This document shows, piece by piece, positions 7,292 through 32,903 of a stretch of 64,000 bases of DNA. This DNA comes from Lysobacter sp. 5GHs7-4. Lineage in GTDB: Bacteria > Pseudomonadota > Gammaproteobacteria > Xanthomonadales > Xanthomonadaceae. Position 1 is the first letter of the stretch; every line of letters starts with the position of its first letter. Below the pieces are notes generated by a model. The model was not told the origin of the DNA, did not search any database, and worked only from the letters and a program-made list of their open reading frames with translations. The translations under genes were made by a program, and so were the position numbers. Location: the NCBI RefSeq assembly GCF_021284765.1, contig NZ_CP089924.1, forward strand, positions 3,614,001-3,678,000, written 5' to 3'.

Positions 7292-7576
7292 ATGGACGAC
7301 TACCCCGAAATGCTAGCGATGGTCAGAGCGCTCGCCCGCTACCTGCGGGCGAACCCGAACAGTTCCGATACCGCGGAAGGAATCGCCACGTGGTGGTTCC
7401 GCGAGCAGACCGTGGTGGACGGACGCGCGCTGCTCGACGCACTGGATTGGATGCGCGCACGCGGCCTGGTCGAAATGCTCAGCGCCAACAGCACCGGCGA
7501 ACGCTACCGCTGCATCGCCAGCGCCGACGAGCTGGACGGCGTGCTGCATGAGCTGTCGAGGCGCCGCCTGACATGA
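7292..7576 (+). CDS. Small winged-helix-like protein, first gene of the injection-system operon
   Basis: A 94-residue acidic/basic mixed protein. The order of predicted elements (N-terminal helix through ALARYLRANP, a DTAEGIATWWF helix, a GRALLDALDWMRARGLVE helix, then a GERYRCIAS hairpin) resembles a winged-helix fold. No name can be given. It is the first gene after the -24/-12 promoter, with only a weak GGGA upstream of ATG 7292. A regulatory or assembly-timing role would fit, for example controlling the activator that lacks its own sensor domain; this is inference. Confidence 0.7.
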   Translation: MDDYPEMLAMVRALARYLRANPNSSDTAEGIATWWFREQTVVDGRALLDALDWMRARGLVEMLSANSTGERYRCIASADELDGVLHELSRRRLT

Positions 7577-7610
7577 CGCGCGCCCACGCAAGGACGCTGG
7601 AGGAACGCCC

Positions 7611-8642
7611 GTGCCGTCGCTGACGCTCGCCGCCTTCACCCAACCCGCCGGCTGGCAGGCGCTGCAGGCCGACGGCGTGACGCCGTCGGCGGCGATCGCG
7701 ATCGCCGAGGATCTGCTGGGCGCCACGCCCAGCGGCGACAGCCGCAGCCTGACGCTGACCTATTCGAACGCGTCGCTGGACCACATCGCGCGCCGCCCGC
7801 TGGCCGCGACCGACCTGGACGACTACGACGAGCTACGGCTGGTGCTGCGCGGCGAGCGCAGCTCCGCGGCGGGGTTCTACCTGGAACTGCGCCTGGGCAG
7901 CGTCGCGCTGCCGATCGGCGCGCCCGGCAACAGCTGGCACCGTCGCGTGCCGGTGAGCGGCGGCGCGGGCTGGGACGTGGTGCGGTTCTCGCTGGCCGAC
8001 CTTCCGCCGGCGGTGCGCGGCGCGGTCACGGTCGCGCAGCTGCAGTGCATCGATGCCAGTCAGGGCTACGCCATCGTCATCGACGAAGCGCTGGCGGTGC
8101 GGCCGAGCATGCTCGCCGACCTGGAGCAATCGTTGCTCGCGCGCCTGCACGAGCGCACCAGCCTGTCCGGCGCCTTGGTGCCGGCCGAGCTGGTGACGGC
8201 CGGCGGCGCCTGGCCCGCGACCACGCCCTGCATCGCGATCGTGCCGATGGACGTGCGCAACCTGCCCGAGCGCAGCGTAGGCGGCGCGCAGCGCTGCGAC
8301 TTCGTCGCCGACGGTTATCGCGTGCGCACGGCGCCGACCGCGTACGAGGCCTGCTATGCCATCGAGGCGGTCGCCGCCGACCGCGCCGATCAAGGCGCGC
8401 TGATGGATTTCCTGCTGCGCGAGATCGCCCCGCGCGGCATGTTGCGCGTGGCCGCGCACGCCTGGTCGTTCGAGACCCAGACGCCGCCCGCCTACGAGTT
8501 CAACCCCAACCTCAACCCCGCGCCGCGCCAGCGGCTGTACTGCCGCGTCTACGCGTGGCAGGACCAGGACGCGCCGGCGTCCGTGCAGCCGGTGGAAGGC
8601 CTGGTCAACCACGTCGATTGGAAGGAGTCCGGCCATGGCTGA
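7611..8642 (+). CDS. Jelly-roll (CBM-like) plus tail-terminator-like fusion protein
   Basis: A 343-residue protein with a GTG start behind GGAGG. Residues 1-170 look like a beta-sandwich of carbohydrate-binding type: a DLDDYDELRLVLRG segment, FYLELRLGS, then a strand ending in YAIVIDEALAVRPS. The remaining half has the pattern of phage/eCIS tail-terminator or cap proteins (YRVRTAPTAYEACYAIEAVA, then LMDFLLREIAPRG and LYCRVYAWQDQD). Afp16-type proteins cap the tail and recruit the last sheath ring; this is the best candidate for that job in the cluster. Fusion to a sugar-binding-like module is unusual. The function is inferred from pattern and position before the sheath. Confidence 0.55.
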   Translation: MPSLTLAAFTQPAGWQALQADGVTPSAAIAIAEDLLGATPSGDSRSLTLTYSNASLDHIARRPLAATDLDDYDELRLVLRGERSSAAGFYLELRLGSVALPIGAPGNSWHRRVPVSGGAGWDVVRFSLADLPPAVRGAVTVAQLQCIDASQGYAIVIDEALAVRPSMLADLEQSLLARLHERTSLSGALVPAELVTAGGAWPATTPCIAIVPMDVRNLPERSVGGAQRCDFVADGYRVRTAPTAYEACYAIEAVAADRADQGALMDFLLREIAPRGMLRVAAHAWSFETQTPPAYEFNPNLNPAPRQRLYCRVYAWQDQDAPASVQPVEGLVNHVDWKESGHG

Positions 8643-8943
8643 AGACAAGGCGAGCGAACGCGTGCGCCTGATCAACACGCGTTCGCAGCCGGTCGAGCTG
8701 CACCTGGGCTCGTCGGTGCACGTGCTCGCGTCGGGACAGAGCGTCGAGCTCGACACCGCCGCGCTGGCGTCGCCGCAGCTGGCCCACCTGCTCGCTCGTA
8801 AGGCGCTGGCGGTACGCAGCGCAACGCCCTCGGAGGCCGATCAGGCCGCCGCTATCGCAACCACTCCGCGCAAGCGCGGCCAGGGAGCCGCCGAAGGAAC
8901 CGCGCGGCCCCCGCAACCACCCAAGAGGAAGAAAGGATCATGA
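8635..8943 (+). CDS. Small hypothetical protein before the sheath gene
   Basis: A 102-residue protein of unknown function. Residues 1-65 form a probable small beta domain (RVRLINTRSQPVELHL...), and the tail from about 75 is basic and low-complexity, ending PKRKKGS. It overlaps the preceding gene by 8 bp and the sheath gene by an ATGA, so it is translationally coupled to both. Small proteins between cap and sheath genes occur in phage tail clusters, but no family was recognised. Confidence 0.7.
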   Translation: MAEDKASERVRLINTRSQPVELHLGSSVHVLASGQSVELDTAALASPQLAHLLARKALAVRSATPSEADQAAAIATTPRKRGQGAAEGTARPPQPPKRKKGS

Positions 8944-11048
8944 GCTTCATCGGCATCAATGTGCGGGAAGTCGACGGAACGGGCGCGCCGGTACTGGCCG
9001 CCGCGCCCACCTCCATCGCGGGCTTCAACATCCTGACCCGGCGCGGCACGCCGAATCAGGCCGTGATGGTCGATTCCTACGCTCGCTTCGTCGAGCGGTT
9101 CGGCGGCTATTTCCCGGGAGGCCTGGGCGCGTACCTCGTCAAGGGCTATTTCGACAACGGCGGCCAGGTCGCCTACGTCAACCGGGTGGTCTCCGACGAT
9201 CCCGCCACCGGCCATGCGCCGGGCACGCTGGCGCTGCGCGACACCAGTCCCGCCGACACGCTGCGGATCTCGGCCGGCTTCCGCGGCAACGAGGATCCGG
9301 GCAGTTGGGGCAACGGCTTGCAGGTGCAGGTCGCGCGTTCCACGCCGACCACCACGCGTCTGCGCGAAGCCGCCGCGGCCACCATCACCGGCACCGTGGC
9401 GCTGGTCGCGCCCGTCGACATGAGCACGCTGCCCAGCCTGACCATCCGCGTCGACGGCTCGCTGGACAACACCGTGATCACCTTCCTGCCCGCGGATTTC
9501 CCGGGCGGCGCGGCCAACGCCACGCCGGCGCAGATCCGCGACGCGATCAACGGCCGTCAGAGCCGCGTGGTCGCCTCGCTGACCGGCCCCGGCAACCTGG
9601 TGCTGACCTCGACCGGCGAAGTCGCGCGCATGAGCGACGGCTGGACCTCGATCCAGGTGATCGCCGCCAACGCCACCCTGGGCTTCGCGATCGCCGCGGC
9701 GGTGCCGGGCACCGCCAGCGCGGTCGCCACCAACGGCGCCACCCTGCGCCGCACCGAGGACTTCGACCTCGGCGACGCGATCGAAGTGTTCGACCCGACC
9801 GTGCCGGCCAACACCGCCATGGTCAAGCTGCTGTCGCGCAACCCGCTGACCGGCGCGGTCACCTGGGGCCCGCCGATCGCCGGCATCGCCGCCTGGACCG
9901 CGCAGAACATCCGCGTGCGCAACCTGCGCTTCAGCGTGACCGTCGCCGAGGGCGGCACCGAGGCCGAGAACGTGCGCGAGACCTGGTCGGACCTGTCGAT
10001 GGAAGCCGACACCCCGAACTACGCGCCGGCACGCATCAACGACGCCATCCGCGGTTCGCGCTACATCGTCGCCGAAGATCTGCTCAGCGCCAGCGCGGTC
10101 GGCGCCGATCGTCCGGCGGTGCTGGCCTGGACGCCGCTGGCGGCCGGCCGCGACGGCACGCCGACGTCGGCGCACTTCAACGGCGATCCGGCGCAGCGCA
10201 GCGGCTTGTTCGCCTTCGATCCGCACGACGTGCAGCTGCTGACCTGCGAGCGCACCGATCCGGCGATCGTCGCCGCGGCCCTGGCCTACTGCGAGAACCG
10301 CGGCGACTGCATGTACGTGGGCGCGGTGCCGGAGGGCTTCACCGAGGCCGGTCAGGCGGTCGCCTACGGCCAGTCGTTCCAGGCCAAGAAGGCCTATGGC
10401 GCGCTGTACGCGCCGTGGATCACCATCGCCGATCCGGCCGGCGTCGGCGACAACCCGCGCCGCAACATCCCGCCGGTCGGCCACGTGCTGGGCGTGTACG
10501 CGCGCGTGGAACGCACGCGCGGCGTGTGGAAGGCGCCCGCGGGCGACGAGGCCAACCTGGCCGGCGTGCTCGACGTGACCTACCGCCTCACCGACGCCGA
10601 GCACACGCAACTGGTCAAGGACGGCAGCGTCAACGGCATCCGCGCGATTCCGCGCGCCGGCATCGTCATCGATTCCTCGCGCACGCTGAGCACCGATCCG
10701 CGCTGGATGTACGTCGGCGTGCGCCTGCTCTTCAACTTCGTCAAGAGCAGCCTGAAGAACGGCCTGCGCTGGGTCCGTCAGGAACCCAACCGCCAGTCGC
10801 TGTGGAACGCGGTCAAGTTCAACGCCGTGAACCCGTTCCTGCTGGGCCTGTGGCGACAGGGCGCGTTCGGCACCGGTTCGCCGGAAGAGGTGTTCACCGT
10901 CATCTGCGACGCCTCCAACAACCCGCCGGACCAGGTCGATCAGGGCCTGCTCAACGTCGAGGTCTATTTCTATCCGTCCAAGCCGGCGGAAACCATCGTC
11001 ATCACCGTCGGCCAGCAGCCCTCCGGGGCGTCGGCGTCCGAAGGCTGA
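8940..11048 (+). CDS. Contractile tail sheath protein (Afp2-4/gp18-like)
   Basis: A 702-residue sheath subunit, long for eCIS sheaths (commonly about 350-500). The N-terminus (SFIGINVREVDGTGAP, then a VDSYARFVERFGGYFPGGLG loop) and the C-terminal domain (IPRAGIVIDSSRTLS, FNFVKSSLKNGLRWVRQEPN, then GLLNVEVYFYPSKPAE) are standard for the phage-tail-sheath family. These polymerise around the tube and contract to drive injection. The middle holds an insertion, with about residues 160-265 resembling a flagellar-hook-like decoration module (LTIRVDGS..., ATPAQIRDAIN, LVLTSTGE). Only one sheath gene is present, unlike the three in Afp/PVC. Confidence 0.95.
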   Translation: MSFIGINVREVDGTGAPVLAAAPTSIAGFNILTRRGTPNQAVMVDSYARFVERFGGYFPGGLGAYLVKGYFDNGGQVAYVNRVVSDDPATGHAPGTLALRDTSPADTLRISAGFRGNEDPGSWGNGLQVQVARSTPTTTRLREAAAATITGTVALVAPVDMSTLPSLTIRVDGSLDNTVITFLPADFPGGAANATPAQIRDAINGRQSRVVASLTGPGNLVLTSTGEVARMSDGWTSIQVIAANATLGFAIAAAVPGTASAVATNGATLRRTEDFDLGDAIEVFDPTVPANTAMVKLLSRNPLTGAVTWGPPIAGIAAWTAQNIRVRNLRFSVTVAEGGTEAENVRETWSDLSMEADTPNYAPARINDAIRGSRYIVAEDLLSASAVGADRPAVLAWTPLAAGRDGTPTSAHFNGDPAQRSGLFAFDPHDVQLLTCERTDPAIVAAALAYCENRGDCMYVGAVPEGFTEAGQAVAYGQSFQAKKAYGALYAPWITIADPAGVGDNPRRNIPPVGHVLGVYARVERTRGVWKAPAGDEANLAGVLDVTYRLTDAEHTQLVKDGSVNGIRAIPRAGIVIDSSRTLSTDPRWMYVGVRLLFNFVKSSLKNGLRWVRQEPNRQSLWNAVKFNAVNPFLLGLWRQGAFGTGSPEEVFTVICDASNNPPDQVDQGLLNVEVYFYPSKPAETIVITVGQQPSGASASEG

Positions 11049-11078
11049 ATTCATCACTAGCGCACGCAGGAGGGCGTC

Positions 11079-11549
11079 ATGCCACAAGTCGGAGACATTT
11101 GGGAAAGTTACCGCGCAAGCGAGTTCGTACTGGTGATCGACGGGCGCGAAAGCCCCGGCGTGAGCAAGATCGGCGGACTCAGCGAAGGCGAGATCGAGAC
11201 CGTGGAGCAACCGCACGGCGGTTCGTTCCGCGTGTTCAAGACCGCCGGCGCGAAGGTCAAGTTCGACTCGCTCACGATCGAGCGCTACGTCGACGGCAGT
11301 CCGGAGGACCAGCGTTTCAAGGACTGGTTCCAGGAGTGCTTCAAGCTCAATCGCGACGACCAGGGCGGCTCGGTGCCGCGCCGCGACGGAATGATCGTCA
11401 AGCGCCATAACGGCGCCGACGTGCTGACCTTCGCCTTCTACGGCGCCTGGGTGAAGTCGTCGAAGTTCACCGACCTGGAAGCCGGGTCCACCAACCACTT
11501 CAAGCAAACCATCGTCCTCGAGCACGAAGGACTGGAGCGTGTCGAATGA
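11079..11549 (+). CDS. Contractile tail tube protein (gp19/Afp1-like)
   Basis: A 156-residue inner-tube subunit of the T4 gp19-like family. The pattern ASEFVLVIDG...GVSKIGGLSEGEIE and the tail FKQTIVLEHEGLERVE are typical of Hcp/gp19 tube proteins, which stack as hexameric rings inside the sheath. A strong AGGAGG site lies 5 nt before ATG. It directly follows the sheath and overlaps the next gene by ATGA. It is the only tube gene seen; canonical eCIS carry two or three variants including the Afp5 initiator. Confidence 0.93.
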   Translation: MPQVGDIWESYRASEFVLVIDGRESPGVSKIGGLSEGEIETVEQPHGGSFRVFKTAGAKVKFDSLTIERYVDGSPEDQRFKDWFQECFKLNRDDQGGSVPRRDGMIVKRHNGADVLTFAFYGAWVKSSKFTDLEAGSTNHFKQTIVLEHEGLERVE

Positions 11550-12364
11550 GCAACCAAGCCACCGCACTGCGCGAGGTCCCGCTGGCGCCGCCGCCGAGCA
11601 CGACCCACCGCACCTACGAGTTCGAACTTCCGATCGGCGTCTACGACGACGAGGGCCGCCTGCACCGTCACGGCATGCTGCGCAAGATGACCGGACGCGA
11701 CGAGGCGATCCTGGCCGATCCGCAGAACCAGCGTAACGGCGGCAAGCTGGTCACCGAACTGCTGGCCAGCTGCATCGTCGGCCTGGGCGAACTCAAGTCC
11801 ACCGGCCCGGGCGTGGTCTCGGAGATGTACTCGGCCGACCGCAACTACCTGCTGTTGCGCCTGCGCGGCGCGACTTTCGGCAACGAGCTGCAGGCGACCT
11901 ACAAGTGCCCGTCCTGCGGCCACAGCCACGAGGTCACCGAGGAGCTCGACGCGCTGCCGGTGCGGCGCATGGGCGAAGAGGAGTCGGCCGGCGAGATCCG
12001 CATCCGCCTGGAGGACGGCTACATCGACAACCAGGGCGTCGCGCACCACGCGATGGTGATGCGCCTGCCGACCGGCGCCGACGAATCGGCGGTGGCGCCG
12101 CAGATGCGCAAGAACGCCTCGCTGGGCAAGAACGCATTGCTCGCGCGCTGCCTGAAGTCGCTGGGCGACGTACCGCAGCACCGGCTCAACGCGATCGGGC
12201 CGAAGCTGCTGGCCGAGCTGACCATGACCGACCGGCGCCTGATCGACCGGGCGCTCAACTCGGCCGCGCCCGGCGTCGACCTGATCCGCGCGCTGGAATG
12301 CCCGGCCTGCGGCCACGAGTTCAAGGCCAGCCTGGATCTGTCCCATTTTTTGGCATTGGACTGA
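11546..12364 (+). CDS. Zinc-ribbon baseplate-hub assembly chaperone-like protein (T4 gp26-like)
   Basis: A 272-residue protein carrying two zinc-knuckle pairs, CPSCGH (about 121-126) and CPACGH (about 252-257), that would form one treble-clef or ribbon. Proteins of this kind follow the tube gene in many actinobacterial and proteobacterial eCIS clusters and are annotated as T4-type baseplate-hub chaperones. The core includes GMLRKMTGRDEAILAD. It starts through an ATGA overlap with the tube gene. Near the 3' end, six consecutive T residues form a T-TTT-TTG slippery heptamer, which could shift part of the ribosomes into the next small gene. Name from pattern and context. Confidence 0.7.
   Translation: MSNQATALREVPLAPPPSTTHRTYEFELPIGVYDDEGRLHRHGMLRKMTGRDEAILADPQNQRNGGKLVTELLASCIVGLGELKSTGPGVVSEMYSADRNYLLLRLRGATFGNELQATYKCPSCGHSHEVTEELDALPVRRMGEEESAGEIRIRLEDGYIDNQGVAHHAMVMRLPTGADESAVAPQMRKNASLGKNALLARCLKSLGDVPQHRLNAIGPKLLAELTMTDRRLIDRALNSAAPGVDLIRALECPACGHEFKASLDLSHFLALD
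12346..12352 (+). other. Putative -1 frameshift heptamer T TTT TTG
   Basis: In the chaperone reading frame the bases fall as T TTT TTG, the X-XXY-YYZ pattern used for -1 ribosomal slippage, 10 nt before the stop. A -1 shift leads straight into the DUF6760-like frame, which lacks a good start codon. No stimulatory downstream structure was worked out. Confidence 0.45.
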
Positions 12365-12531
12365 CGCTCGAGGATTTGCGTCGCGAGGTGTTCTTTCTGG
12401 CGTACCACCTTCACTGGCCGCACGCCGAGTTGATGGATATGCCCACCGAGGACCGACGCAGCTTCGCGCGTCTGCTGATCGAGCAGATCGAGCGGGAAAA
12501 CGCCGAAATCGAATCGTCCAGGGGTCGCTGA
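12361..12531 (+). CDS. DUF6760-like small protein (start uncertain)
   Basis: A short frame whose conserved part reads LEDLRREVFFLAYHLHWPHAELM...RRSFARLLIEQIE, matching the small DUF6760-type proteins that follow the gp26-like gene in eCIS clusters. No ATG, GTG or TTG with a ribosome site opens the frame. Candidates are CTG at 12361 (CTGA overlap with the upstream stop), a TTG at 12376 too close to its GAGGA, or fusion to the upstream protein by -1 slippage at 12346-12352. With the CTG start it is 56 residues. The exact role is unknown; it probably helps baseplate assembly. Confidence 0.65.
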   Translation: MTLEDLRREVFFLAYHLHWPHAELMDMPTEDRRSFARLLIEQIERENAEIESSRGR

Positions 12532-12560
12532 CCCCTGCCTTCGCAACCAGGAGCGGTTGA

Positions 12561-14348
12561 ATGCCCATCGGGCTGCTACTGACATCGCTGTCGACGCCGT
12601 TGGCCGGCATGGCCACGGCGTTCGAGCGATGGAACGCGGTGCTGCGGCTGGAAGCCGTGGTGATCGACCGCGCGCGCGGTGCGTTCCTGGTGGAGTGGTT
12701 CGGTGCACGGCTGCCGCGTCTGGACAGCCGCCTGCGCGTGGTGATCAGCAACATCGTCGCGCTGGGCGAGCGGTATCGCGAGGCGCGCGCGCAATCCAAG
12801 GGGGGCCAGACCGGCCCCAATCTGCTCGAACCGCTGGCCGGCATGGCCGGCATGGCGGTGGGCATGTTCATCAGCCCCAGCGGCTCGCTGATGTATCTGT
12901 ACACCTGCCTGCGCGAATCCGCCGGCGCGATCGTCTCCAGCCTGCTCACCATTCTGTACAGCCCGATCTTCCTGGCCGAGATCACCGGCCTGGGCACCGC
13001 GGTGGCCGCGGTCGCGTTCCCGCTGGTGCTGATCGGCGGCTTCGTCGCCGGCATCGTCGCCGCGGCCTCCGGGCCGAACAGCTCGATGGTGCTGGCCTAC
13101 GAACTGCTCGGCGACGCCACCCGCGCCATCCAGGCGCTGACCCGCTTCATCAACCTGCTGATGGGCCCGCGTGAGGCGATCCGCAATCCGCTGTTGCGGG
13201 GCATCCTCGAACTGGTCGACCGCATCGCCGCACTGTTCGCGCAGCTGGTCGGCGCCGCGGCCTGGCTGGTGACCCGCTTCGGCAGGATGCTGTTGCCCAC
13301 GGCGATGCAGTTCCGCGCCCTGATCGATTTCGCCAAGGCGATCTGGGACGTGGTCGACCGCATCGGCCAGGGCACCCTGGCCGCACTGCAAGGCGCCGAT
13401 CCGGAAGCGTCGCCGCTGGCGATCCTGATGCGCCTGATCGATCACGTCATGGCCGTCGCCCGCCGCCTGATCGAGATCGCCGGCGCGATGTTGTCGGAGA
13501 TGGTGGTCTCGCTGAAGTACGGCTTCGGCTCGATCGCCGACCGTACCCGGGCCGAGATCGAGACGACCGTGTCCATGGCGCGTTCGCTGATCGAAGATCT
13601 GCCGATGATCCGGATGTTCCGCGCGACCGCGCGGATGGTGACGGTGGTGCGCGGCATCTTCGCGTCCTCGGGCATCGGGTCGTCGACGCCGCCGGCGGCG
13701 CCGCCGCCGTCCTCGGGCGGCGGTCTGGGCGGCGCGGTCAGCACCGGCGTGGGCCGCGGCCGCGCGCTCACCAGCCTGCTGGTGGTCCCGCCCACGCCCA
13801 GCCTGGACCTGGCCCGCCGCATGGTCGACACCGCGCGTGGCGGCACCGTCGTCGAGAATCCCTGGGGCCCGGACTTCGACACCGACATGGCCGCGCCGTT
13901 CGCGCTGGACCCGGCCACCGACGCGCTCGCACAGCAACTGATGGCCGAGCCGCCCAGCGTGTTCCGCGGCGAAATCCCAATGATGGTGGCCGAGTTCGGC
14001 GTGGACACGCCCGACGCCGCGTTCGACCGGCTGCGCACCGACGAGCTGCGCTATCGCGATGTGATCTACACCGTGGCCGCGCGCATCCTGCCGCCGGAAA
14101 TCCAGATCCGCATCCCGATGCTGCTGGATGCGTTCGACGCGCTGGACCGCCATATCTACGGCCGCGACGTGCCCACGCGCGACCCCGAATTCCCGGTGCG
14201 CGACCTGCCCGACAACGGCCGCCTGCGCCCGGTGGTGCGGCGGATCACCGTGCGCGCGCCCGGCGCCGATCCCGTGTCGGTGCGCAACATCGCCAACGAT
14301 CTGACCCGCCTGCTGCGCGAGCAGACCTACCTGGCGCCGGCGGAGTGA
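12561..14348 (+). CDS. Tape-measure-like hydrophobic protein 1
   Basis: A 595-residue protein of no recognised family, with a good AGGAG site before ATG. It is mostly helical in appearance. Residues about 110-185 contain strongly hydrophobic stretches (LLTILYSPIFLAEITGLG, AFPLVLIGGFVAGIVAAA), then amphipathic helices to about 370, a Pro/Gly/Ser hinge (about 375-390), and a more soluble C-terminal domain. It is the first of three neighbouring long proteins with the same overall plan, lying between the baseplate chaperone/DUF6760 pair and the Afp7-like gene. Length-determining tape measures or tube-loaded membrane-active cargo would both fit; neither is shown. Confidence 0.7.
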   Translation: MPIGLLLTSLSTPLAGMATAFERWNAVLRLEAVVIDRARGAFLVEWFGARLPRLDSRLRVVISNIVALGERYREARAQSKGGQTGPNLLEPLAGMAGMAVGMFISPSGSLMYLYTCLRESAGAIVSSLLTILYSPIFLAEITGLGTAVAAVAFPLVLIGGFVAGIVAAASGPNSSMVLAYELLGDATRAIQALTRFINLLMGPREAIRNPLLRGILELVDRIAALFAQLVGAAAWLVTRFGRMLLPTAMQFRALIDFAKAIWDVVDRIGQGTLAALQGADPEASPLAILMRLIDHVMAVARRLIEIAGAMLSEMVVSLKYGFGSIADRTRAEIETTVSMARSLIEDLPMIRMFRATARMVTVVRGIFASSGIGSSTPPAAPPPSSGGGLGGAVSTGVGRGRALTSLLVVPPTPSLDLARRMVDTARGGTVVENPWGPDFDTDMAAPFALDPATDALAQQLMAEPPSVFRGEIPMMVAEFGVDTPDAAFDRLRTDELRYRDVIYTVAARILPPEIQIRIPMLLDAFDALDRHIYGRDVPTRDPEFPVRDLPDNGRLRPVVRRITVRAPGADPVSVRNIANDLTRLLREQTYLAPAE

Positions 14349-22314: not shown

Positions 22315-22331
22315 GCAAGGAGCGTCCGATC

Positions 22332-26900: not shown

Positions 26901-28020
26901 GCGCATCGACCGCAACGATGCCGTGCTCGCGGTGCGCAGCGCGCAAGGCCTGCCCAGCAACGACGTCAACGCCTGGTCGTCGCCATGGTCGGGTGCGGTC
27001 GCGCTCAGCGACGGCGGCGCGCGCGGCGATCGCGACCCCTGCCTGTTGCGCGAAGCGGGCGGCAGCGTGCTGCTGCTGTGGTCGCGTTGGCTGGCCGGCG
27101 CGGCCGGCGAAGACCGGCGCGCGCTGCGTGCGCGCCGTTACGACCCGGTGGCGATGAGCTGGGGCGCGATCGTCGACGTCACCACGCCGCCCGCGCCCGG
27201 CGCGGCCGACGTGCAACCCTCGGCGCTGGCGCTGGGCGGCGGCGGCGCGCGCGTGTTCTTCAGCAGCGACCGCAACGGCGGCCGCAGTCTGTGGGAAGTG
27301 TCCTTGAACGCGGCGCTGGTGCCGACCGTACCGCTGGCCCTGCCCTGGGACGAAACCGCGCGCGTCGCGCCCCTGCCCTTGCTGCTGCCCACCGCCGGAT
27401 TGACCCTGCTGCACCGCTGCGACGCGTCCGTGGCCCTGGACCAGCTCGCGCCGATCCTGGCCGGCGCCGCGCCCACCGCCGCGCCCACGCGCGTGCCGGA
27501 AGCCGCGACGCTGCGCCGGCACTGCAATACCATCACGCCGCGCATGGCCGAAACCGCGCGCAACAGCCGCCACCACCAATGGGGCGATCTGCTCGCGTAC
27601 ACACCGCATCGCCCGCTGGGCGGCGACGACGAACCGCCGCTGTCGCCCAACGAGTTCTACACGCGCGGCACGCTCGGCCTGTACGTCACCCGCGGCCGCT
27701 TCGGCCAGGCATTGACCGCGACCAATGCCGCGCGTCTGAAACAACTGCTGGCCGAATTCCTGCCGATCAACCTGCGCGCGGTGATCGTGCTGGCGCCGTC
27801 GCTGACCACCGAAGTGCTGTACGCGCCCGGCGCGGATCTGACCGATTCGTACCTGGACGACTACCCCTTCGTCGAACAGTTCCTCGACCTGGCCGACTCC
27901 ACCGCCGCGGCATTGCCGGACTGGGTGGTGCTGCTGAGCAATCAGGTCGCCGGCGTCAGCGCCGATCCGACCAACTTGAACACCCTGCGCCGCCGCACCT
28001 ACTTCCCGCCGCCGATCTGA
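23947..28020 (+). CDS. Tail protein I (gpI/Afp12-like) with inserted decoration modules and beta-propeller
   Basis: A 1,357-residue protein with a GTG start behind GAGGAG. About residues 174-320 are gpI-like (MYDLLPAVHRQFDVNLRP, LPQLAGWLGWRLGD, RLYESVGTVTAVGALVTRYTG). About 342-458 and 572-668 are two hook-like modules (ATAAEVAAAIA, NPALATTAEVVAAMNAQL, ALGFAHA). About 748-1008 are six or seven two-component-regulator-type propeller repeats (DGLPSDDVR...LWVATDAGVARR). The C-terminal 170 residues (LPINLRAVIVLAPS, ending YFPPPI) are a separate domain. gpI is normally about 200-300 residues, so this is a large chimera likely displaying target-binding domains on the baseplate. Confidence 0.8.
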   Translation: MIIDRFNAESDLVARRVRVAWTLTPGPGETLADAPRQTLRRKTRDFEFPQPPLAPDPYLVYDSAAFPPIPGGGISVIDLPPWEERDGAERIVYEAISVAQDVGGQPLERMRRIVATYYGSDGQPLRRQIEIVDGGDAPLSLTPGDACYYQLFSAAFDPVEAQRHRAIATPAAPHGLNRSMYDLLPAVHRQFDVNLRPTTPGSDAIPEMAARSGQLRRLLDVYGSAMDSARSSAENLWDLHDIDRVDGRRLPQLAGWLGWRLGDADALPLARNELKATPRLYESVGTVTAVGALVTRYTGWTTRTAEFVQHLARSNHAPRYQLHVSVPAGAGWRSPLDAAALLGFGAGNDEAFGIGPAPATLVGNIAGPYAIFAGAELSIAVDGGAAFRVRLGAASFANPAAATAAEVAAAIAAVASDIVADAVGGQVRLRTRSVGPDAQISVGARESEALTLDAAGADRIAAAADALGRVRVFASDAASAPDPDQREGERAPYGGLVCKTWDAGQWRGATRLLATRPGDDAAVAHPAAATLADGRVFLARVEAAESANARVRWSLGSSRPRLPAMLQGRQLPRFRLTVGTRMTLRTAGANDVFQVNAIDYANPALATTAEVVAAMNAQLTQAVASPAGDGSIRLTSTALGPTARLSVDLSLSSCARALGFAHATAPSFGSWDDTLDLTPTQTIPALTPGRPTELSALASGDGAVLAWSEHADGRWRLRASAWLGAVDPIATAAGLALRGENGAINVLDSADGLPSDDVRHALVGGLGALWVATDAGVARRRGDLTWQSFDTGDGLSSNDCRRLLQTGDGAVWVATDNGLSRVAANGAVTTFDNGDGLADNDVRALALAADGALWIATAAGLSRLDRDGNVANTFAPDLPSDDVRDVALAADGRVWVATAAGIGERNAAGVWSTLAPPLAIGNDVRGLAHADNALWIAAASGVWRRAADGAWRGWTLADGLPSVDARQIGVDGGGQAWVATAAGAARIDRNDAVLAVRSAQGLPSNDVNAWSSPWSGAVALSDGGARGDRDPCLLREAGGSVLLLWSRWLAGAAGEDRRALRARRYDPVAMSWGAIVDVTTPPAPGAADVQPSALALGGGGARVFFSSDRNGGRSLWEVSLNAALVPTVPLALPWDETARVAPLPLLLPTAGLTLLHRCDASVALDQLAPILAGAAPTAAPTRVPEAATLRRHCNTITPRMAETARNSRHHQWGDLLAYTPHRPLGGDDEPPLSPNEFYTRGTLGLYVTRGRFGQALTATNAARLKQLLAEFLPINLRAVIVLAPSLTTEVLYAPGADLTDSYLDDYPFVEQFLDLADSTAAALPDWVVLLSNQVAGVSADPTNLNTLRRRTYFPPPI

Positions 28021-28073
28021 TCGGCTCCGCACGCACACCTTTCAACGAACACGTTCATCGAAGGAACCGAACT

Positions 28074-28613
28074 ATGGACACGGACACCCGCATGCCCCTG
28101 CCGCAAGGCATGTACCGCGACGTGCTGCGCGACGCCGACGGGCGCGTGATCTGGGACCGCGGCTGGGCCAAGAACGCGATCCTCACCGATTGCCGGCGCC
28201 TGCTGGCCGCGTTCATGGGCGGCACGCCCGGCGCCACGCTCGGCATCCAGGGCCTGGCGGTGGGCGCCGGCCTGGCGTCCTGGGACCAGGTGCCGCCCCC
28301 GCCGCCGACCGGCAACGAAACCGGCCTCACCGATCCGTCGCCGTTCGTGGTGCCCGGCGCGGCGCTGGACTTCACCTTCATGGACGGACCGGTGCCGTCG
28401 GCCACGCCGACCAACCGCCTGCAGATAGTCGCCACGCTCGGGCCCAACGTACCGCCCTGGCCGAACGGCAGCCACGCCAGCGGCAACCTGCGCGAGTTCG
28501 GGCTGATCGCCCAACTCGGCGGCGCGCCGACGCAGATCAATCTCGTGCGCCACCCGGTAGTCGCCAAGGACCCGGCCAGCACGCTCGAACGCACCATCTG
28601 GCTCGTGTTCTGA
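28074..28613 (+). CDS. Tail-fibre/collar-like hypothetical protein
   Basis: A 179-residue protein; GAAGGAAC before ATG 28074. The pattern WAKNAILTDCRRLLAAFMGG, then LGIQGLAVGAGLASWD, then LREFGLIAQLG and a closing TLERTIWLVF resembles small phage tail-fibre or assembly proteins with a repeated beta-sandwich. It lies between the gpI-propeller and DUF6519 genes. No specific family assigned. Confidence 0.6.
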   Translation: MDTDTRMPLPQGMYRDVLRDADGRVIWDRGWAKNAILTDCRRLLAAFMGGTPGATLGIQGLAVGAGLASWDQVPPPPPTGNETGLTDPSPFVVPGAALDFTFMDGPVPSATPTNRLQIVATLGPNVPPWPNGSHASGNLREFGLIAQLGGAPTQINLVRHPVVAKDPASTLERTIWLVF

Positions 28614-28638
28614 CACGACCACACGACGGGGACACGCC

Positions 28639-30369
28639 ATGGCCATCATTTCGCCCAACACTTTCGATCCGATCCGCCGCTACGTCAGCGTGCGCCTGGC
28701 CCAGGGCGTGCCCCTGGCCGACGCCGACTGGAACGAAGGCGACGACATGCGCCGCTACGAGCTGCGCGCCTTCCTACGCTGGTTCGTCGGCGACGGCGTG
28801 CCGGTCGGCAACGACGGCTTCCGCATCGCCGCGATCAACTCCGCGACCAGCTTCACCATCGTCGGCGGCGGCGGCCCGCAACCGCTGCAGGCCGGCCGCA
28901 TGCTGGTCGACGGCCTGGAGGCGTTCATCACCGCCGACGTCGGCTTCAGCGCGCAGCCGCTGCACGCCAGCCAGGGCGGCGCCGCCGCGTTGGCCGCGAG
29001 CTGGGGCGTGCCGGTGATCGCGGCGTTGCCGGCGCCGCCGGTCGCGCCGGCCACGCGCACGCTCACCGTCTATCTCGACGTCTGGGAACGCCTGGTCACG
29101 CTGGCCGAGGATCCCGCGCTGGTGCTGCCGGGCCTGGGCACCGAGACCTGCTCGCGCCTGCGCCGCGAATGGGCGGTGCGCGTGCGCACCGGCGCCGCGC
29201 CGCCGGTCAACGGCGATCCGGACTTCATCGCCGGCCACAGCTATTCCGCGCTGGCCACGATCACCCAGACCTCGGCCGGCATCATCGACGCCGCCGCCGT
29301 GGTCGACCGCCGCCGCCGCGGCATCTCGCTGCCGTCGCAAATGGATTTCAACCAGGTCCTGTCCGACACCTTCGGCGGCGGCTACGCGGTCAACGGCAGC
29401 GGCGTGCCGCAGCTGCCGTATCCGATGCGCGACGTGATCAACGCGATGCTGCGCGAACGGCCAGCCGCGGTCGGTCCGACCACGGTGCTCAACGCCGGCC
29501 CCTACAACACGCCCACCGCGGTGATCGATTCCACCGGCGTGCCCTGGGTGTTCTGGGTGCGCGTGGCCGGACCCAACCGCTTCCTGTCCTTCAGCCGCCG
29601 CATCGCCGGCGTGTGGACCGCGGCCGCCGATGCGTTCCAGTTCACCGGCGTGCTCAGCGTCAGCAGCCTGGCCGCGGCCGCGCAGTCCAACGGCACCATC
29701 CGGGTGTTCTACTCCGCGCTGTCGGGCAACAACCGCATCTTCAGCCGCGCCTTCACCGGCGTGTGGGGCGCGGAGGAGCTGGTCGATTCGATCGATCAGA
29801 ACAGCCGCGTCAGCGCGGTCACCGATACCACCGGCACCATCATCGCCGTCTGGCAGCGCGACACCGCCGGCGTGCTCACCGCGCAGAGCGTGCGCTATCC
29901 GCTGGGCGGCGCCGCCGGTGCGGTCACCAACGCCGGCACCATGGTGCGTCCGGGCGATCACGCGATCACCATCGATCCCACTGGCGCGCCGCAACTGGTG
30001 TACGTGCAGGAGCCCAATCCGATCGGGCCGAACTGGGCGGTATTCACCAAGCGCTACATCGCCGGCGTCTGGGAAGCCAACTTCACCGACAGCACCCTGA
30101 CCGTGCCGGTCACCACCTTCATCGACCTGGCCGTGGGCTACACCGCCGACAGTTCGCTGTGGTTGTTCTATTCCACCGTCAGCACGCCCGGCTTCAGCAC
30201 ACTGCGCGCGCGCAGGCTGGTGCTGGGCGTGACCGAAACCCGCGAACTGCTGCCGCCGCAGCAGACCGCGCGCTTCCCCAGCCTCGCGGTCGACGCGGCC
30301 GGCAACGCCGGCCTCTACATCCAAAACGGCGCCCTGCTGCAGCAGGTCGGCCTGGTCCAGCACATCTGA
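28639..30369 (+). CDS. DUF6519-like protein fused to a beta-propeller
   Basis: A 576-residue protein. The first 70 residues (NTFDPIRRYVSVRLAQGVPL, ADADWNEGDDMRRYELRAFL) match the DUF6519-type N-terminus (FDP..H...V..QQG...LDADWNE) found at the end of many eCIS baseplate operons. From about 290 onward, sialidase-like blades recur (TAVIDSTGVPWVFWVR, AAAAQSNGTIRVFYSA, TDTTGTIIAVWQRD, ITIDPTGAPQLVYVQE), suggesting a five- to six-bladed propeller. Role inferred: tail-associated host-recognition or adaptor component. Confidence 0.75.
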   Translation: MAIISPNTFDPIRRYVSVRLAQGVPLADADWNEGDDMRRYELRAFLRWFVGDGVPVGNDGFRIAAINSATSFTIVGGGGPQPLQAGRMLVDGLEAFITADVGFSAQPLHASQGGAAALAASWGVPVIAALPAPPVAPATRTLTVYLDVWERLVTLAEDPALVLPGLGTETCSRLRREWAVRVRTGAAPPVNGDPDFIAGHSYSALATITQTSAGIIDAAAVVDRRRRGISLPSQMDFNQVLSDTFGGGYAVNGSGVPQLPYPMRDVINAMLRERPAAVGPTTVLNAGPYNTPTAVIDSTGVPWVFWVRVAGPNRFLSFSRRIAGVWTAAADAFQFTGVLSVSSLAAAAQSNGTIRVFYSALSGNNRIFSRAFTGVWGAEELVDSIDQNSRVSAVTDTTGTIIAVWQRDTAGVLTAQSVRYPLGGAAGAVTNAGTMVRPGDHAITIDPTGAPQLVYVQEPNPIGPNWAVFTKRYIAGVWEANFTDSTLTVPVTTFIDLAVGYTADSSLWLFYSTVSTPGFSTLRARRLVLGVTETRELLPPQQTARFPSLAVDAAGNAGLYIQNGALLQQVGLVQHI

Positions 30370-30386
30370 GCGAAAGGAGCTCCTCA

Positions 30387-32903
30387 ATGAAACCTCAACT
30401 TCCGCTATGGCGACTCGGGGCGATGCTGCTCGCCCTGTTCGTCGGCACCGACGCGGTGGCGGCCACGGCCAGCCCCAACGTCACCGCAGCCAGCACCTCC
30501 GAGCCCAAGCTCAACGGCACCGGCGATGCCTGGGCGCCGTTCGGCAACGCGCTGGGATTCCCCAACTCCAGCAAGTCCATCAAGGTGTTCTACCTGTCCG
30601 ACGATCTGGCGGTGTATCCGCTCAACGGCGCGGGCGCGACCGTGCAGTTGCGCCCCAAGGGCGGCGGCCCGATGATCAACTGCACGTTCAACGCCGGCGT
30701 GCCGGTGATGAGCGGCACCAACGGCGGCACCTGCACCTTCCGCATGAGCAACACCGCCGGGCAGATCGACACCCTGGAGGTGTTCCACCTGGGCATGCTG
30801 TCGGGCGACATCCGCCTCACCGCCACTGGCATCACCGCCAGCGGCGGCGGCAACACCGTCGATGCCTACGACAGCGACACCGTGATTCCCGGCACGCCGC
30901 CGGCACCGGCCGTGGGTCCGCCGCTGTCGCGGCTGCCGGCGCGCCTGGTGCTGGTGTTCGACAAGTCCGGCAGCATGGCGTGGTCGTCCAAGCTCAACGG
31001 CGACCCGGTCTGCGGCGCGCTGTACGCGCCCAATCCCGACTGCCAGCGCTGGAGGGTGCTGCGGCGCGCGACCGAGCAGATGATCTCGGTGGCCAAGGCC
31101 TATCAGCTGCCCACCGACAAGCTTGGCGTGGTGTTCTTCGATCACGACGCGACCAACACCGGCGGCATCGCCGCGATGAGCAGCGTCAATCTGGACGCGG
31201 TGCTGAGCGAAATCGACAAGCCGGCCCACCAGCCTAGCGGCGGCACCTCGATCGGCGACGGCATCGAGAACCTGCAAAGCGCGCTGGTCGGCGGCGACAA
31301 CGCCAGCTTCAACAACACCATGCTGCTGTTCACCGACGGCGCCCAGAACACCAGCAAGTTCGTGGTCTGGGACGGCCTGGACCTGCGCCTCAACGCCACC
31401 AACAGCCCGATCGGCGGCGAGCTGGTGCGTCCGGCCGGCAAGCAGCTGAGCCTGTGCCCGTTCCGCCTGCGCCTGGACGATCCCAGCGATCCGGATTCCA
31501 GCTCGCTGCTGCAGAACATCGCCAACTACAGTGGCTGCGGCGCGCTCAACATCGAGACCACGCTGGACAATCCGCCCGCCGGCGCGATCCAGTATTTCCT
31601 GCAGGTGCTGGCCGACACCCTGATCGGCGACAAGCTGGAACTGTTGCACACCGCCAAGGGCGCGCAGGCCGATCCGGGCGGCCGCGAGGGCCCGCCGATC
31701 GACATGGCGTTCAAGACCAGCAAGAAGGATCTGGCCTTCACCGTGCTGCTGGGCTGGGACAAGGCCTTCCAGGCCGATGGCCGTCCCAACATCAAGCTGA
31801 GCAAGGACGGCGTCGATTTCGACCCGCTGCATAACCCGCGCTTCACCATCAGCGGCGGCAACGGCCACATCGCGCTGACCCTGCGTGCGCCGTTCTGCGA
31901 TGCGCACGGCAAGTGCGTGTCGCCCGATGGCGATTGGAAGATGCAGGTGAACAGCACCCTGGCGCGCGGTCCCAGCCATTGGAACCTGTTCGTCATCGCC
32001 GACAACGCCAGCATCTACTCACGCTACGCGGTGAGCCAGAACAAGGCCGGTATCGGCGAGCCGCTGCAGCTCAAGGCCACCCTGACCGAAGGCGGCAAGC
32101 CGCTGACCGGACTGGCCGCCGGCACGGTGCGCGCCTTCATCTCCGGCCCGGCCGAAAGCTTGGGCAACATCCTCGCCGCCGGCAAGGCCAAGGCCGGCGA
32201 CGCGCCGCAGGGCGACGCGCTCAGCGCGGCCGGCCTGAAAGCGCAGGCCATGCTCAACGACCCGGCGCAGCGCGACAAGCTGCTCGCCGCGCTGGAACTG
32301 GGTGCGGAAAAGGGCATCGAGCTGAAGGAAACCAGCCCCGGCGTGTACACCGGCGAATACCCGGCCACCCTGGCCGAGGGCGTGTATCAGGTCACCTACC
32401 GTATCGACAGCAGCAGCCCCGACAACGGCGGCTTCACCCGCGTCTACACCACCGACCACTACGTGCAAGTGGCGCCCGATGCGGCCGCCACCGCCAAGAC
32501 CATCAAGCACGAGCCCGCGCGCGCCTGCCCGTCCACGTTCGCTGGCGGCTGCGTACAGGTGACGCTGAAGCCGGTCGACGCCAAGGGCAACCTGGTCGGC
32601 CCCGGCAAGGGCGCCAGCGTCCAACTGGTGCAGCCGTTCGAAGGCGGCCTGGTCGGCGACGTGATCGACAATCTCGATGGCAGCTACCGCATCGTGATCG
32701 GCTACAACAAGAAGGGCATGGCCCCGCCGGTGCTGCGCATCGACGGACTCGAACTGAAACTGCCCGACGCGGTCGGCACCGGCGGCAAGGGCGGCGGCAG
32801 CATCGTCGACAGCGGCGACAAGCCGATCTGGATGCAGTGGTGGGTGTGGCTGATCGCCCTGCTGGTGCTGTTGATCCTGATCCTGCTGATGCGTCGCAAG
32901 TGA
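30387..32903 (+). CDS. Membrane-anchored von Willebrand factor A (VWA) protein
   Basis: An 838-residue exported protein behind AAAGGAG. It has a signal peptide (LGAMLLALFVGTDAVAA), a beta-rich N-terminal domain, a VWA domain whose metal site is VFDKSGSM (about residues 190-197) with the downstream partners GGTSIGDG and LLFTDGAQN, Ig-like domains (about 550-780), and a C-terminal membrane helix WVWLIALLVLLILILLMRRK. The topology places almost all of it in the periplasm, anchored in the inner membrane. It is the last gene of the injection-system operon, 17 bp after the DUF6519 gene. VWA proteins bind other proteins through Mg2+; anchoring or docking the apparatus is one idea. Confidence 0.85.
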   Translation: MKPQLPLWRLGAMLLALFVGTDAVAATASPNVTAASTSEPKLNGTGDAWAPFGNALGFPNSSKSIKVFYLSDDLAVYPLNGAGATVQLRPKGGGPMINCTFNAGVPVMSGTNGGTCTFRMSNTAGQIDTLEVFHLGMLSGDIRLTATGITASGGGNTVDAYDSDTVIPGTPPAPAVGPPLSRLPARLVLVFDKSGSMAWSSKLNGDPVCGALYAPNPDCQRWRVLRRATEQMISVAKAYQLPTDKLGVVFFDHDATNTGGIAAMSSVNLDAVLSEIDKPAHQPSGGTSIGDGIENLQSALVGGDNASFNNTMLLFTDGAQNTSKFVVWDGLDLRLNATNSPIGGELVRPAGKQLSLCPFRLRLDDPSDPDSSSLLQNIANYSGCGALNIETTLDNPPAGAIQYFLQVLADTLIGDKLELLHTAKGAQADPGGREGPPIDMAFKTSKKDLAFTVLLGWDKAFQADGRPNIKLSKDGVDFDPLHNPRFTISGGNGHIALTLRAPFCDAHGKCVSPDGDWKMQVNSTLARGPSHWNLFVIADNASIYSRYAVSQNKAGIGEPLQLKATLTEGGKPLTGLAAGTVRAFISGPAESLGNILAAGKAKAGDAPQGDALSAAGLKAQAMLNDPAQRDKLLAALELGAEKGIELKETSPGVYTGEYPATLAEGVYQVTYRIDSSSPDNGGFTRVYTTDHYVQVAPDAAATAKTIKHEPARACPSTFAGGCVQVTLKPVDAKGNLVGPGKGASVQLVQPFEGGLVGDVIDNLDGSYRIVIGYNKKGMAPPVLRIDGLELKLPDAVGTGGKGGGSIVDSGDKPIWMQWWVWLIALLVLLILILLMRRK

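Follow-up and report, generated by a model that had tools for sequence, protein, structure and literature searches.

A contractile-tail gene cluster of Lysobacter with a CIS-like shell, predicted phage-like assembly and no Afp15-type ATPase

How an injection tail could be assembled and loaded without a dedicated ATPase is the question raised by a locus of the soil bacterium Lysobacter sp. 5GHs7-4 (GCF_021284765.1, NZ_CP089924.1, positions 3,614,001-3,678,000, forward strand). Within this stretch of 64,000 nt, hereafter the window, 21 genes at positions 7292..32903 form a cluster that the initial annotation described as an eCIS-type particle without an AAA+ ATPase and unlike the Afp, PVC, MAC and Streptomyces lineages. 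Judged by its genes, the locus is a real contractile-tail cluster and encodes no Afp15, so that this part of the description stands. Its unusualness, however, was partly misread: a missing ATPase, one tube gene, separate gpD and gpV, and hydrophobic proteins all belong to the make-up of a phage-type tail module. We consider it likely that the locus is an operon for a domesticated, ATPase-free contractile tail whose sheath and cap are eCIS-like, with phage-like assembly, a frameshifted chaperone and a ruler made from the proteins H1-H3. It probably belongs to an old domesticated lineage that joins a CIS-like shell to such assembly.

Gene content, control and boundaries

The features are given below with their evidence. 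Pfam was run on 20 of the 21 cluster proteins together and on the 81-aa protein separately. The comparison covered 11 loci (the window, L002-L005, L011, L012 and L052-L055), made up of five Lysobacter, two Sphingomonas-like and four divergent records, and the gene order from sheath to J recurs in all of them.

5949..6971, +, sigma-54 activator, AAA+ enhancer-binding protein, 340 aa (PF00158 209.5 bits, AAA_lid_14 85.3 bits)
7252..7267, +, candidate sigma-54 -24/-12 promoter, TGGCAC-N5-TTGC (motif scan)
7292..7576, +, 94-aa small protein, first after the promoter, winged-helix-like by eye (no Pfam match; 90-91% in L002-L004; weak match in L055, E 0.003)
7611..8642, +, cap/terminator-like protein with CBM-like domain, 343 aa (AF2 pLDDT 84.6; Foldseek PDB)
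8635..8943, +, 102-aa small conserved protein (79-84% in L002-L004; short matches in L052-L055)
8940..11048, +, tail sheath, 702 aa (PF04984 35.3 bits, PF17482)
11079..11549, +, tail tube (PF06841 51.8 bits; TIGR02241 50.3 bits, below its cut-off)
11546..12364, +, tail-assembly-chaperone-like protein, zero-frame product (PF12322 56.8 bits)
12346..12352, +, slippery heptamer T TTT TTG, in phase
12352..12531, +, -1-frame extension DUF6760, 59 codons and stop (PF20546 29.9 bits, cut-off 27)
12561..14348, +, H1, tape-measure-slot protein, 595 aa (weak PHROG tape-measure matches, E 0.011-0.038)
14354..16357, +, H2, tape-measure-slot protein, 667 aa (profile match to H3, prob 98.9, E 1.8e-17; no PHROG match)
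16361..18286, +, H3, tape-measure-slot protein, 641 aa (PHROG tape-measure matches, E 0.057-0.088)
18310..19053, +, CIS_tube/Afp7-like hub adaptor (PF19266 40.9 bits)
19067..19387, +, small baseplate protein, presumably LysM/gpX-like from its position (no Pfam match; phrog_7145 'baseplate wedge subunit' 9e-4; 33% to phage gp94, 4e-8)
19397..20518, +, gpD-like hub (NF033848 VgrG-related 8e-8, below its cut-off; phrog_52 2.7e-8)
20526..21320, +, gpV-like spike (PF04717 56 bits; structure matches VgrG, 7aef and 7b5h chains)
21334..21690, +, Pro/Leu repeat protein with Cys near both ends (54% in L055)
21695..21940, +, 81-aa small conserved protein (no Pfam match; relatives in L005, L012, L053, L055)
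21955..22314, +, gp25/sheath initiator (PF04965 74.5 bits)
22326..23936, +, baseplate J (PF04865; TIGR02243 229.5 bits, cut-off 155.8)
23947..28020, +, gpI-like protein with beta-propeller region, 1357 aa (TIGR02242 29.9 bits, below its cut-off; Reg_prop 51.2 bits)
28074..28613, +, 179-aa tail-fibre-region protein (phrog_5417, unknown function, 5.7e-5; 94-99% in L077-L079)
28639..30369, +, DUF6519 protein (PF20129 41.3 bits)
30387..32903, +, VWA protein with N-terminal signal-like and C-terminal TM-like segments (PF13519 30.8 bits; hydropathy; 47% match in the Sphingomonas locus)

Most of the gene assignments made initially were borne out, by Pfam for the sheath, tube, PF12322, CIS_tube, gpV OB (PF04717), gp25 and J genes and by the matches listed above for gpD, J and gpI; the three hydrophobic proteins, the Pro/Leu protein and the putatively membrane-anchored VWA protein are likewise present. 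The sheath is indeed single, with one PF04984 match in the complete 4.71 Mb genome. The gene list was nevertheless incomplete: the small gene at 21695-21940 had been overlooked, the gap at 12364-12561 holds the -1-frame DUF6760 extension, and the role of the 343-aa gene at 7611 had been missed. The model of this last protein matches, in Foldseek searches of the PDB, CBM11 (4.1e-7), the Streptomyces CIS cap 9gts (1.1e-5), the Anabaena cap 7b5i (3.2e-5), and Algoriphagus 7adz and the PVC terminator 6j0f (2.1e-4). Four CIS cap/terminator chains stand among the 50 matches listed, most of the others being carbohydrate-binding modules or carbohydrate-active enzymes. The protein has no Pfam match to DUF4255, and its modelled fold resembles a cap/terminator of the eCIS kind (Afp16/DUF4255).

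The absence of an AAA+ ATPase holds for Afp15 within the cluster and not for its surroundings, as the sigma-54 activator is encoded immediately upstream, outside the coordinates considered at first. Its Fis-type HTH scored below the cut-off (HTH_8 18.7 bits, cut-off 22) and no N-terminal sensor domain was found. AAA matches and ORFs occupy the corresponding place in L002-L004, G062 holds an 88% match and L057 a relative (2052-3464); none was detected in G688, a Streptomyces-like record, or in the 3.1 kb that precede the Sphingomonas MAG cluster. For the upstream promoter claimed earlier, a sigma-54-type candidate exists at 7252, the sole match in the window with at most one mismatch, where 1.99 would be expected by chance on both strands. 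The motif recurs at the same place in L002, L003 (0 mismatches), L004 (1) and L080 (0), and with one mismatch at position 3709 of the distant L057. For the proposed downstream terminator, positions 32850-33600 yielded two weak, overlapping and unconvincing terminator-like hits at 33218-33239, against 0.6 expected in shuffles. In the Sphingomonas locus, matches to window genes end with VWA.

None of the 21 cluster genes matches PAAR or AAA at E<=0.1, as had been stated for both, and the sigma-54 activator accounts for the only PF00004 match in the window. A genome-wide search with an Afp15 query from cluster G674 returned three partial AAA matches, none full-length, which by their size presumably resemble FtsH, ClpX and a Ycf46-like protein. 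Among records that may be fragments, G688, G689, G690, G692 and G693 contain no PF00004-type AAA, and in G691 the AAA match is the sigma-54 activator alone. Scans of 20 cluster proteins and of 14 ORFs nearby (some possibly chance frames) found no capsid, portal, terminase or integrase, and the scanned cluster proteins included no TssJLM/VipB of type VI secretion; gp25 matches TssE below its cut-off, and the sole VipB match of the genome sits at 2.709 Mb. As predicted from its genes, the particle has the sheath, tube, hub, spike, gp25 and J of an eCIS without head genes, and lacks both Afp15/Cis15 and the PAAR tip (Afp10). A figure legend of PMC8213781 counts 'AAA' among the known core domains of eCIS. 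The missing PAAR is not decisive, because of two Streptomyces clusters only that of S. venezuelae has Cis10 PAAR, according to the available part of PMC10066040.

The chaperone-like gene and the tape-measure slot

Near its end, the chaperone-like gene carries, in phase, a heptamer of the canonical form X XXY YYZ, followed by a conserved -1 ORF between the tube gene and the tape-measure slot. T TTT TTR is present in 11/11 loci, its T6 is invariant among the 10 that could be aligned, and in all 11 the -1 frame is open from the heptamer onward without a conserved start codon. TTTTTTR occurs once on the + strand of the window, and T TTT TTG is the sole in-phase T-run heptamer across the 21 cluster genes; TTT accounts for 7/232 Phe codons in the window and 2/154 in L052. 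DUF6760 scores above its cut-off in the window and in L055. In the distant cluster G463, a gp26-like gene ends in an in-phase GGGAAAG, a lambda-type heptamer, followed by a -1 DUF6760 ORF (70.7 bits). RNA 3' of the slippery site has a consensus of -6.5 kcal/mol and no strong conserved structure. Chaperone and extension would correspond to the gpG/gpGT arrangement of phages, a zero-frame/-1 pair described in the available part of PMC5009743, with the frameshift being predicted from the genes. As in gpG/gpGT and its P2 counterparts, the pair lies between tube and tape-measure slot, whereas the heptamer and the DUF6760 extension differ. A literature search retrieved no paper linking a frameshifted tail-assembly chaperone to CIS.

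The best PHROG match of the chaperone-like protein is annotated 'baseplate hub' (phrog_150, 7.9e-17), ahead of 'tail assembly chaperone' (phrog_508, 3e-7), which counts against reading it as a chaperone. Translation of the DUF6760 ORF as a separate gene by re-initiation is very doubtful: in the distant cluster G549 DUF6760 (45.9 bits) does start at a separate ATG, which overlaps the stop codon of the chaperone, and some loci have GTG near the junction, but the start codon there is not conserved (CTG in the window, GTA in L053 and L055), in contrast to the heptamer.

Because the predicted frameshifting chaperone directly precedes H1, and by comparison with a phage tail described below, we regard the positions of H1-H3 as the tape-measure slot. 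Their slot makes tape measures the best reading of these proteins, and the predicted helices fit; they follow the chaperone, are long and appear helical, helicity having been modelled for H3 alone (long helices, among them 213-360, at an overall AF2 pLDDT of 60, low confidence). The H3 model has no match among BFVD viral folds at E<=0.001. H1 is linked weakly to H2 and H3 by profile comparison (prob 62-64), and matches of the H3 and H1 profiles to PDB apolipoproteins (1.3e-6) and designed helical bundles (4.9e-8) reflect helix composition only. No further tape-measure candidate is visible in the cluster. The initial annotation had named as refuting its view the finding that the hydrophobic proteins are well-known Afp14-type tape measures; that they are tape measures is largely borne out by position and by the predicted frameshifting chaperone, and the predicted helices are compatible, yet no sequence link to Afp14 or any tape measure was established, and there are three instead of one. 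In known tails the tape measure is a single-gene trimer.

In the model that we favour, gene identity, gene order, slippery site and promoter match are supported by sequence; regulation, particle, length, heteromeric ruler, contraction and target are deduced from the genes. The adjoining activator would start transcription of the operon at the 7252 promoter. Most translation would yield the chaperone, with some ribosomes slipping -1 at T TTT TTG to add DUF6760 as a 'T' domain, and the pair would cover the tape measure and bring in tube subunits like lambda gpG/gpGT. With H1, H2 and H3 in the tape-measure slot, the tube would reach ~90-100 nm, capped by the 343-aa protein and seated on a baseplate of hub, spike, gp25, J and I. 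As no Afp15 is encoded, any cargo would have to be loaded by another route, or the hydrophobic tape measures themselves would act on the target membrane.

Relation to known systems and alternative readings

The tail module of the BRock-type Streptomyces phage LuckySocke has the same order as the cluster. Sequence links the sheath (29%), tube (35%), PF12322-like gp90 (26%), gp94 (33%), gp25 (21%) and J (31%), all at E<=2e-4; position and inspection by eye pair the DUF6760-like gp91, ruler-slot gp92, adaptor gp93, hub gp95 and spike gp96. LuckySocke differs in being an infectious phage, in having its small ORF (gp91) in the other shifted frame, and in placing a single 1,054-aa gp92 in the ruler slot, which neither the H1 nor the H2 profile matches.

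Kinship with CIS is seen in the shell. The nearest solved sheaths are 8bky (2.7e-56) and 8bl4/9gts (1.1e-55), 9gts being a Streptomyces coelicolor CIS entry (CIS IId) that is also among the best cap matches, and eCIS (Afp, PVC, MAC, AlgoCIS) share the sheath, tube, hub, spike, gp25, J and cap families, with the AlgoCIS spike 7aef and PVC terminator 6j0f matching cluster proteins. These likenesses, with CIS_tube and the TIGR0224x families, could indicate a true eCIS lineage, kin to the Streptomyces CIS, that lost its ATPase and in which H1-H3 serve as anchors in a membrane or are injected to form pores, the particle then acting inside the producer or at its membrane. Each of H1-H3 has 2-5 TM-like stretches by hydropathy. 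Five Lysobacter genomes and the Sphingomonas MAG also have, linked to the cluster, a VWA protein with TM-like segments. We nevertheless judge this reading unlikely: the predicted frameshifting chaperone and LuckySocke mark a tape-measure slot, and TM stretches also occur in phage tape measures (PMC11948020, available part). The cluster differs from eCIS in lacking Afp15, in its one sheath and one tube plus CIS_tube, and, relative to the Afp gene order, in having the ruler slot directly after the chaperone. From Streptomyces CIS, compared through sheath, cap and published description, it appears to be set apart by three ruler-slot proteins, separate gpD and gpV, the sigma-54 activator and perhaps the absence of an Afp15-type ATPase. 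Streptomyces CIS have neither an Afp13-type fibre nor a typical Afp14, in the available part of PMC10066040.

R-type tailocins are also headless contractile tails without Cis15 (PMC12210884, in the part available). A tailocin that is freed by lysis and then kills related strains would suit the phage-like gene order, missing Afp15 and lack of head genes among the scanned ORFs; it is quite improbable, as Pfam, NCBIfam and PHROGs recognised no lysis genes (holin/endolysin cassette) in the cluster, in line with the earlier claim, the sheath is most CIS-like, with phage sheath matches of 25-32% identity among those listed (15 of 526 records), and H3 and J relatives spread over several phyla. Tailocins are under SOS-type control, in whose place the cluster has a sigma-54 activator. 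A decaying or satellite prophage tail, for which the phage-like module and the classing of relatives as viral contigs in IMG/VR could speak, is scarcely credible given that sheath-to-J genes other than H1-H3 match 88-100% over their length in L002-L004 and L011, that SSB, TetR and GSDH genes flank the cluster with no integrase or capsid family in the 14 neighbouring ORFs scanned, and that H2 is unmatched in 50,697 phage records.

The domesticated-tail reading, if confirmed, would be new in its three ruler-slot genes, its sigma-54 control and a programmed frameshift in a CIS-like cluster. It would bring programmed frameshifting into CIS biology, assign a role to the unnamed Pfam family DUF6760, and open a direct way to learn whether assembly and loading of an injection tail require the ATPase. 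We further entertain, as a tentative proposal, that H1-H3 are diverged copies in one hetero-oligomeric (1:1:1) ruler, that DUF6760 is the general 'T' domain of the frameshifted tail-assembly chaperones of CIS, and that the cluster represents an ATPase-independent, sigma-54-controlled CIS lineage in several phyla that survey filters may remove. A 2025 survey, in its available part, excludes clusters having Cis13 and Cis14 without Cis15, and the lineage would drop out provided that its genes for ruler and fibre were identified correctly. The locus would offer a natural system in which to study how one ruler could be built from three distinct proteins; H1-H3 lengths over 9/11 loci show no consistent covariation (r -0.19, 0.51, 0.68). 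Among 8000 candidates scored, 607 are J relatives at E<=1e-20, not necessarily all of this lineage.

Composition and shell of the cluster

The complete 4.71 Mb genome of Lysobacter sp. 5GHs7-4 carries, on the plus strand of the window (7292-32903), a predicted contractile-tail operon in which we placed 21 genes plus one -1-frame extension. Searches with Pfam, NCBIfam and PHROGs recognised the sheath, tube, PF12322, CIS_tube, gpD-like hub, gpV, gp25, baseplate J (TIGR02243, 229.5 bits), DUF6519 and VWA families, as well as a gpI-like protein that contains a propeller. The genes discussed below are as follows:

11546-12364, plus strand: PF12322 chaperone-like gene
12561-14348, plus strand: first hydrophobic protein, H1
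14354-16357, plus strand: second hydrophobic protein, H2
16361-18286, plus strand: third hydrophobic protein, H3
20526-21320, plus strand: spike
21334-21690, plus strand: Pro/Leu repeat protein
22326-23936, plus strand: baseplate J
23947-28020, plus strand: gpI-like baseplate protein

The closest solved sheaths to that of the window are 8bky and 8bl4/9gts, and the spike matches best to VgrG, 7aef and 7b5h chains. By these sheath and spike matches, the shell is CIS-like. The logic of ruler and chaperone is phage-like, and the gene order matches that of Streptomyces phage LuckySocke, which, however, has a single 1054-aa protein in the slot occupied here by H1-H3.

A prophage reading was rejected, as head genes are absent from the ORFs scanned, and no second sheath cluster was found by PF04984, the sheath family, which has a single match across the 4.71 Mb. 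An origin from a type VI secretion system was likewise rejected, since the VipB sheath gene of this genome sits elsewhere (G000:C1:2708956-2709864); on account of that gene, the genome probably encodes a separate type VI secretion system. No Rfam family reached its gathering score in the window.

The first structural gene encodes a 343-aa protein whose predicted model is good (pLDDT 84.6). In a fold search it matches carbohydrate-binding modules best; the best 50 of 102 matches (E≤0.001) also include caps or terminators of the CIS of Streptomyces, Anabaena and Algoriphagus and of PVC. Residues 65-143 match CIA30 (E 0.047) and residues 203-262 weakly match phage gp87 (probability 30), from which we infer a putative carbohydrate-binding-module-like first half and a cap as second half.

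The spike ends in a His-Thr-His motif reminiscent of iron-binding phage spike tips, and this end could account for the missing PAAR. The adjoining Pro/Leu repeat protein has a conserved Cys near both ends and sits roughly at the eCIS PAAR-tip position. Its relatives are present in the Lysobacter locus L002, the Sphingomonas-like L005 and L012, and the divergent records L053 and L055; it is apparently missing from the divergent L052, where the space does not suffice for it and the 81-aa gene. The propeller of the gpI-like protein is of the two-component-regulator type (Reg_prop), to our knowledge unusual in a tail protein.

Predicted frameshift and tape-measure slot

The PF12322 gene ends in CAT TTT TTG GCA TTG GAC TGA, and the -1 frame is open from the heptamer to 12528. 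This -1 ORF is kept in 11/11 loci sharing the gene order, and so is the in-phase heptamer T TTT TTR; a start codon for the ORF is not conserved, and in the divergent records L053 and L054 the -1 frame is closed by a stop within ~30 codons 5' of the heptamer. The codons concerned are rare: among selected ORFs, the share of TTT in Phe codons is 3% for the window and 1.3% for L052, and that of TTA plus TTG in Leu codons 7.9% and 3.3%, respectively. Multiplied over six lineages (the window, L005 and L052-L055), these shares give about 4e-14, with the sites themselves counted in. TTTTTTR occurs once on the plus strand of the window. RNA structure downstream of the slippery site is weak.

The extension passes the cut-off for DUF6760 in two loci, the window and L055, and falls short of it in L052. 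DUF6760 is found in 7 of 398 genomes, three of them above the cut-off, and its connection to the chaperone-like gene varies: one genome or record (G463, 70.7 bits) has the pair with an in-phase GGGAAAG, another (G549, 45.9 bits) joins it by a stop/ATG overlap, and two below the cut-off of 27 have, by eye, an in-frame fusion (G395, 22.2 bits) and a -1 extension (G310, 21.5 bits). The best PHROG of the chaperone-like protein is 'baseplate hub'. In phage lambda, gpG binds the tape measure together with gpGT, its -1 product, and the two bring in tube subunits, an arrangement widely conserved in long-tailed phages, T4 excepted (PMC5009743); the title of one reference suggests that in T4-like phages no frameshift is needed to make these chaperones. 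In LuckySocke, the annotated 51-aa hypothetical gp91 (L096, 7430-7585) resembles DUF6760 by eye and follows gp90 in the alternative shifted frame, so that gp90/gp91 is possibly a differently decoded chaperone. The literature searched, which lacks most subscription papers, yielded neither a CIS with a programmed frameshift nor this cluster, and no paper on DUF6760 or on a CIS, tape measure and sigma-54 together.

H1-H3 lie directly 3' of the chaperone-like gene. As determined by profile comparison, H2 and H3 are related (probability 98.9, E 1.8e-17 over 475 columns; 95.6 with shallower profiles). H1 weakly matches the C-terminal end of H2 (62.5) and a short stretch of H3 (64), links that fall to 5.7 and 0.6 with shallower profiles; all these scores may be inflated by hydrophobic composition. 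The predicted H3 model contains helices of 148 and 81 residues at low overall confidence (pLDDT 60), and a fold search with it gave no useful match. Searching the PDB with the H3 and H1 profiles returned apolipoproteins and designed helical bundles, which were set aside, and no similarity was found between H1 or H2 and LuckySocke gp92. Length covariation among H1-H3 is inconsistent across nine of the 11 loci (L052 and L054 were excluded for unclear starts). Given the position of the three proteins, the kinship of H2 and H3, the single protein in the LuckySocke slot and the tape-measure trimer described for the phiCD508 phage structure (PMC11948020), we infer, boldly, that H1, H2 and H3 together may form a single hetero-trimeric ruler, about 90-100 nm long at 0.15 nm per residue.

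Sigma-54 elements and AAA proteins

A -24/-12 sigma-54 match lies at 7252-7267, 24 bases upstream of the first ATG. It is the sole window match with at most one mismatch, and alone it is of little meaning because about two are expected by chance on both strands. The match is found again at the corresponding position in L002 and L003 (0 mismatches), L004 (1), L080 (0) and the distant L057 (1), where it is the only plus-strand match in that 8 kb; the background is 45 matches in 1.0 Mb of plus-strand sequence, with overlapping loci and recurring sites counted in.

The initial annotation described a particle without an Afp15-like AAA+ ATPase. Its claim on Afp15 is upheld genome-wide: an Afp15-type query (a 699-aa protein of G674, AAA 100.2 bits) found three partial AAA matches and nothing full-length. 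The wider claim of no AAA+ protein holds within 7292-32903 and fails immediately upstream, where the only PF00004 match inside the window, in a search of 11 genomes or records, is a sigma-54 activator by Pfam (5949-6971). PADLOC, run on six proteins, matched this activator alone, over its AAA-HTH part. An AAA match stands at the corresponding place in L002-L004, the genome G062 has an 88% relative of the activator, and the cluster of the distant record G691 has ahead of it a homologue that carries additional N-terminal sequence. No PF00004 match was found in records G688, G689, G690, G692 and G693, which may be fragments.

One of the partial matches, remote from the cluster (at about G000:C1:511441-513000), is an AAA ATPase of some 520-554 aa that resembles Ycf46; the genomes of L002-L004 have AAA matches with similar open-frame length.

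In one eCIS survey, AAA is a core eCIS domain and at least 10 core genes including Afp12, 13, 14 or 16 are required (PMC8213781); the word Lysobacter is absent from its main text. Another removed clusters that have Cis13 and Cis14 and lack Cis15 (PMC12210884). Whether such surveys catch or miss this lineage would turn on the scoring of its divergent genes.

Conservation and spread

The order from sheath to J is common to 11 loci: the window, three Lysobacter loci, a Sphingomonas MAG and six IMG/VR records (L011, L012, L052-L055). These are not all independent, five being Lysobacter strains; L011 is apparently the strain of G062, as the identities are the same. L052 owes the label Streptomyces-like to its H3, which nearly equals P0091 of a Streptomyces. 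Past J, the order is kept through VWA in L002-L004 (genomes G015, G229 and G190 by contig positions) and the Sphingomonas MAG, and in L054 the DUF6519 gene and the 179-aa gene have exchanged places. In L002-L004 and L011, identity to the window is 88-100% for sheath-to-J genes outside H1-H3 (leaving aside the Pro/Leu and 81-aa genes) and 59-86% for H1-H3. The nearest named loci belong to Lysobacter sp. cf310, Root916 and Root76, and the nearest named H3 protein (92%) to Lysobacter sp. Root667.

Among 297 genomes of the family, five have H3, each from the genus of the window; among 398 genomes spread across the phylum, one does, the window's own. Protein databases contain 71 H3 relatives, including proteins of Corallococcus, Planctomycetota, Pyrinomonadaceae and Streptomyces, and 607 J relatives at E 1e-20. 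Phage records gave six J matches, in Streptomyces phages (27-31%), and none for H2; plasmid records gave none for H3 or J. Such a distribution suggests an old module that may have spread horizontally. The VWA gene is 85-100% identical in the five same-genus genomes having the cluster, and the identity in the Sphingomonas MAG is 47%; among six other genomes or records, distant relatives occur in two genomes of the same genus, and the remaining four (one genome and three record fragments) have none.

The accompanying data sets comprise 20 of 21 H2 proteins, the window's own excluded (A1), 12 of those plus four loci (A8), 28 of 71 H3 proteins (A5) and 21 of 120 J proteins among the matches listed (A6); A7, A9 and A10 omit L003, a near-copy of L002, and A9 also L012, where the gene is off the record.

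Elsewhere in the window, a 1228-aa ORF without Pfam match (46541-50227, minus strand) follows, on the same strand, a 4539-aa ORF (50232-63851) with DUF11/CARDB-type repeats, 27 DUF11 stretches and an OmpA domain near its end, which is a putative giant surface-type protein.
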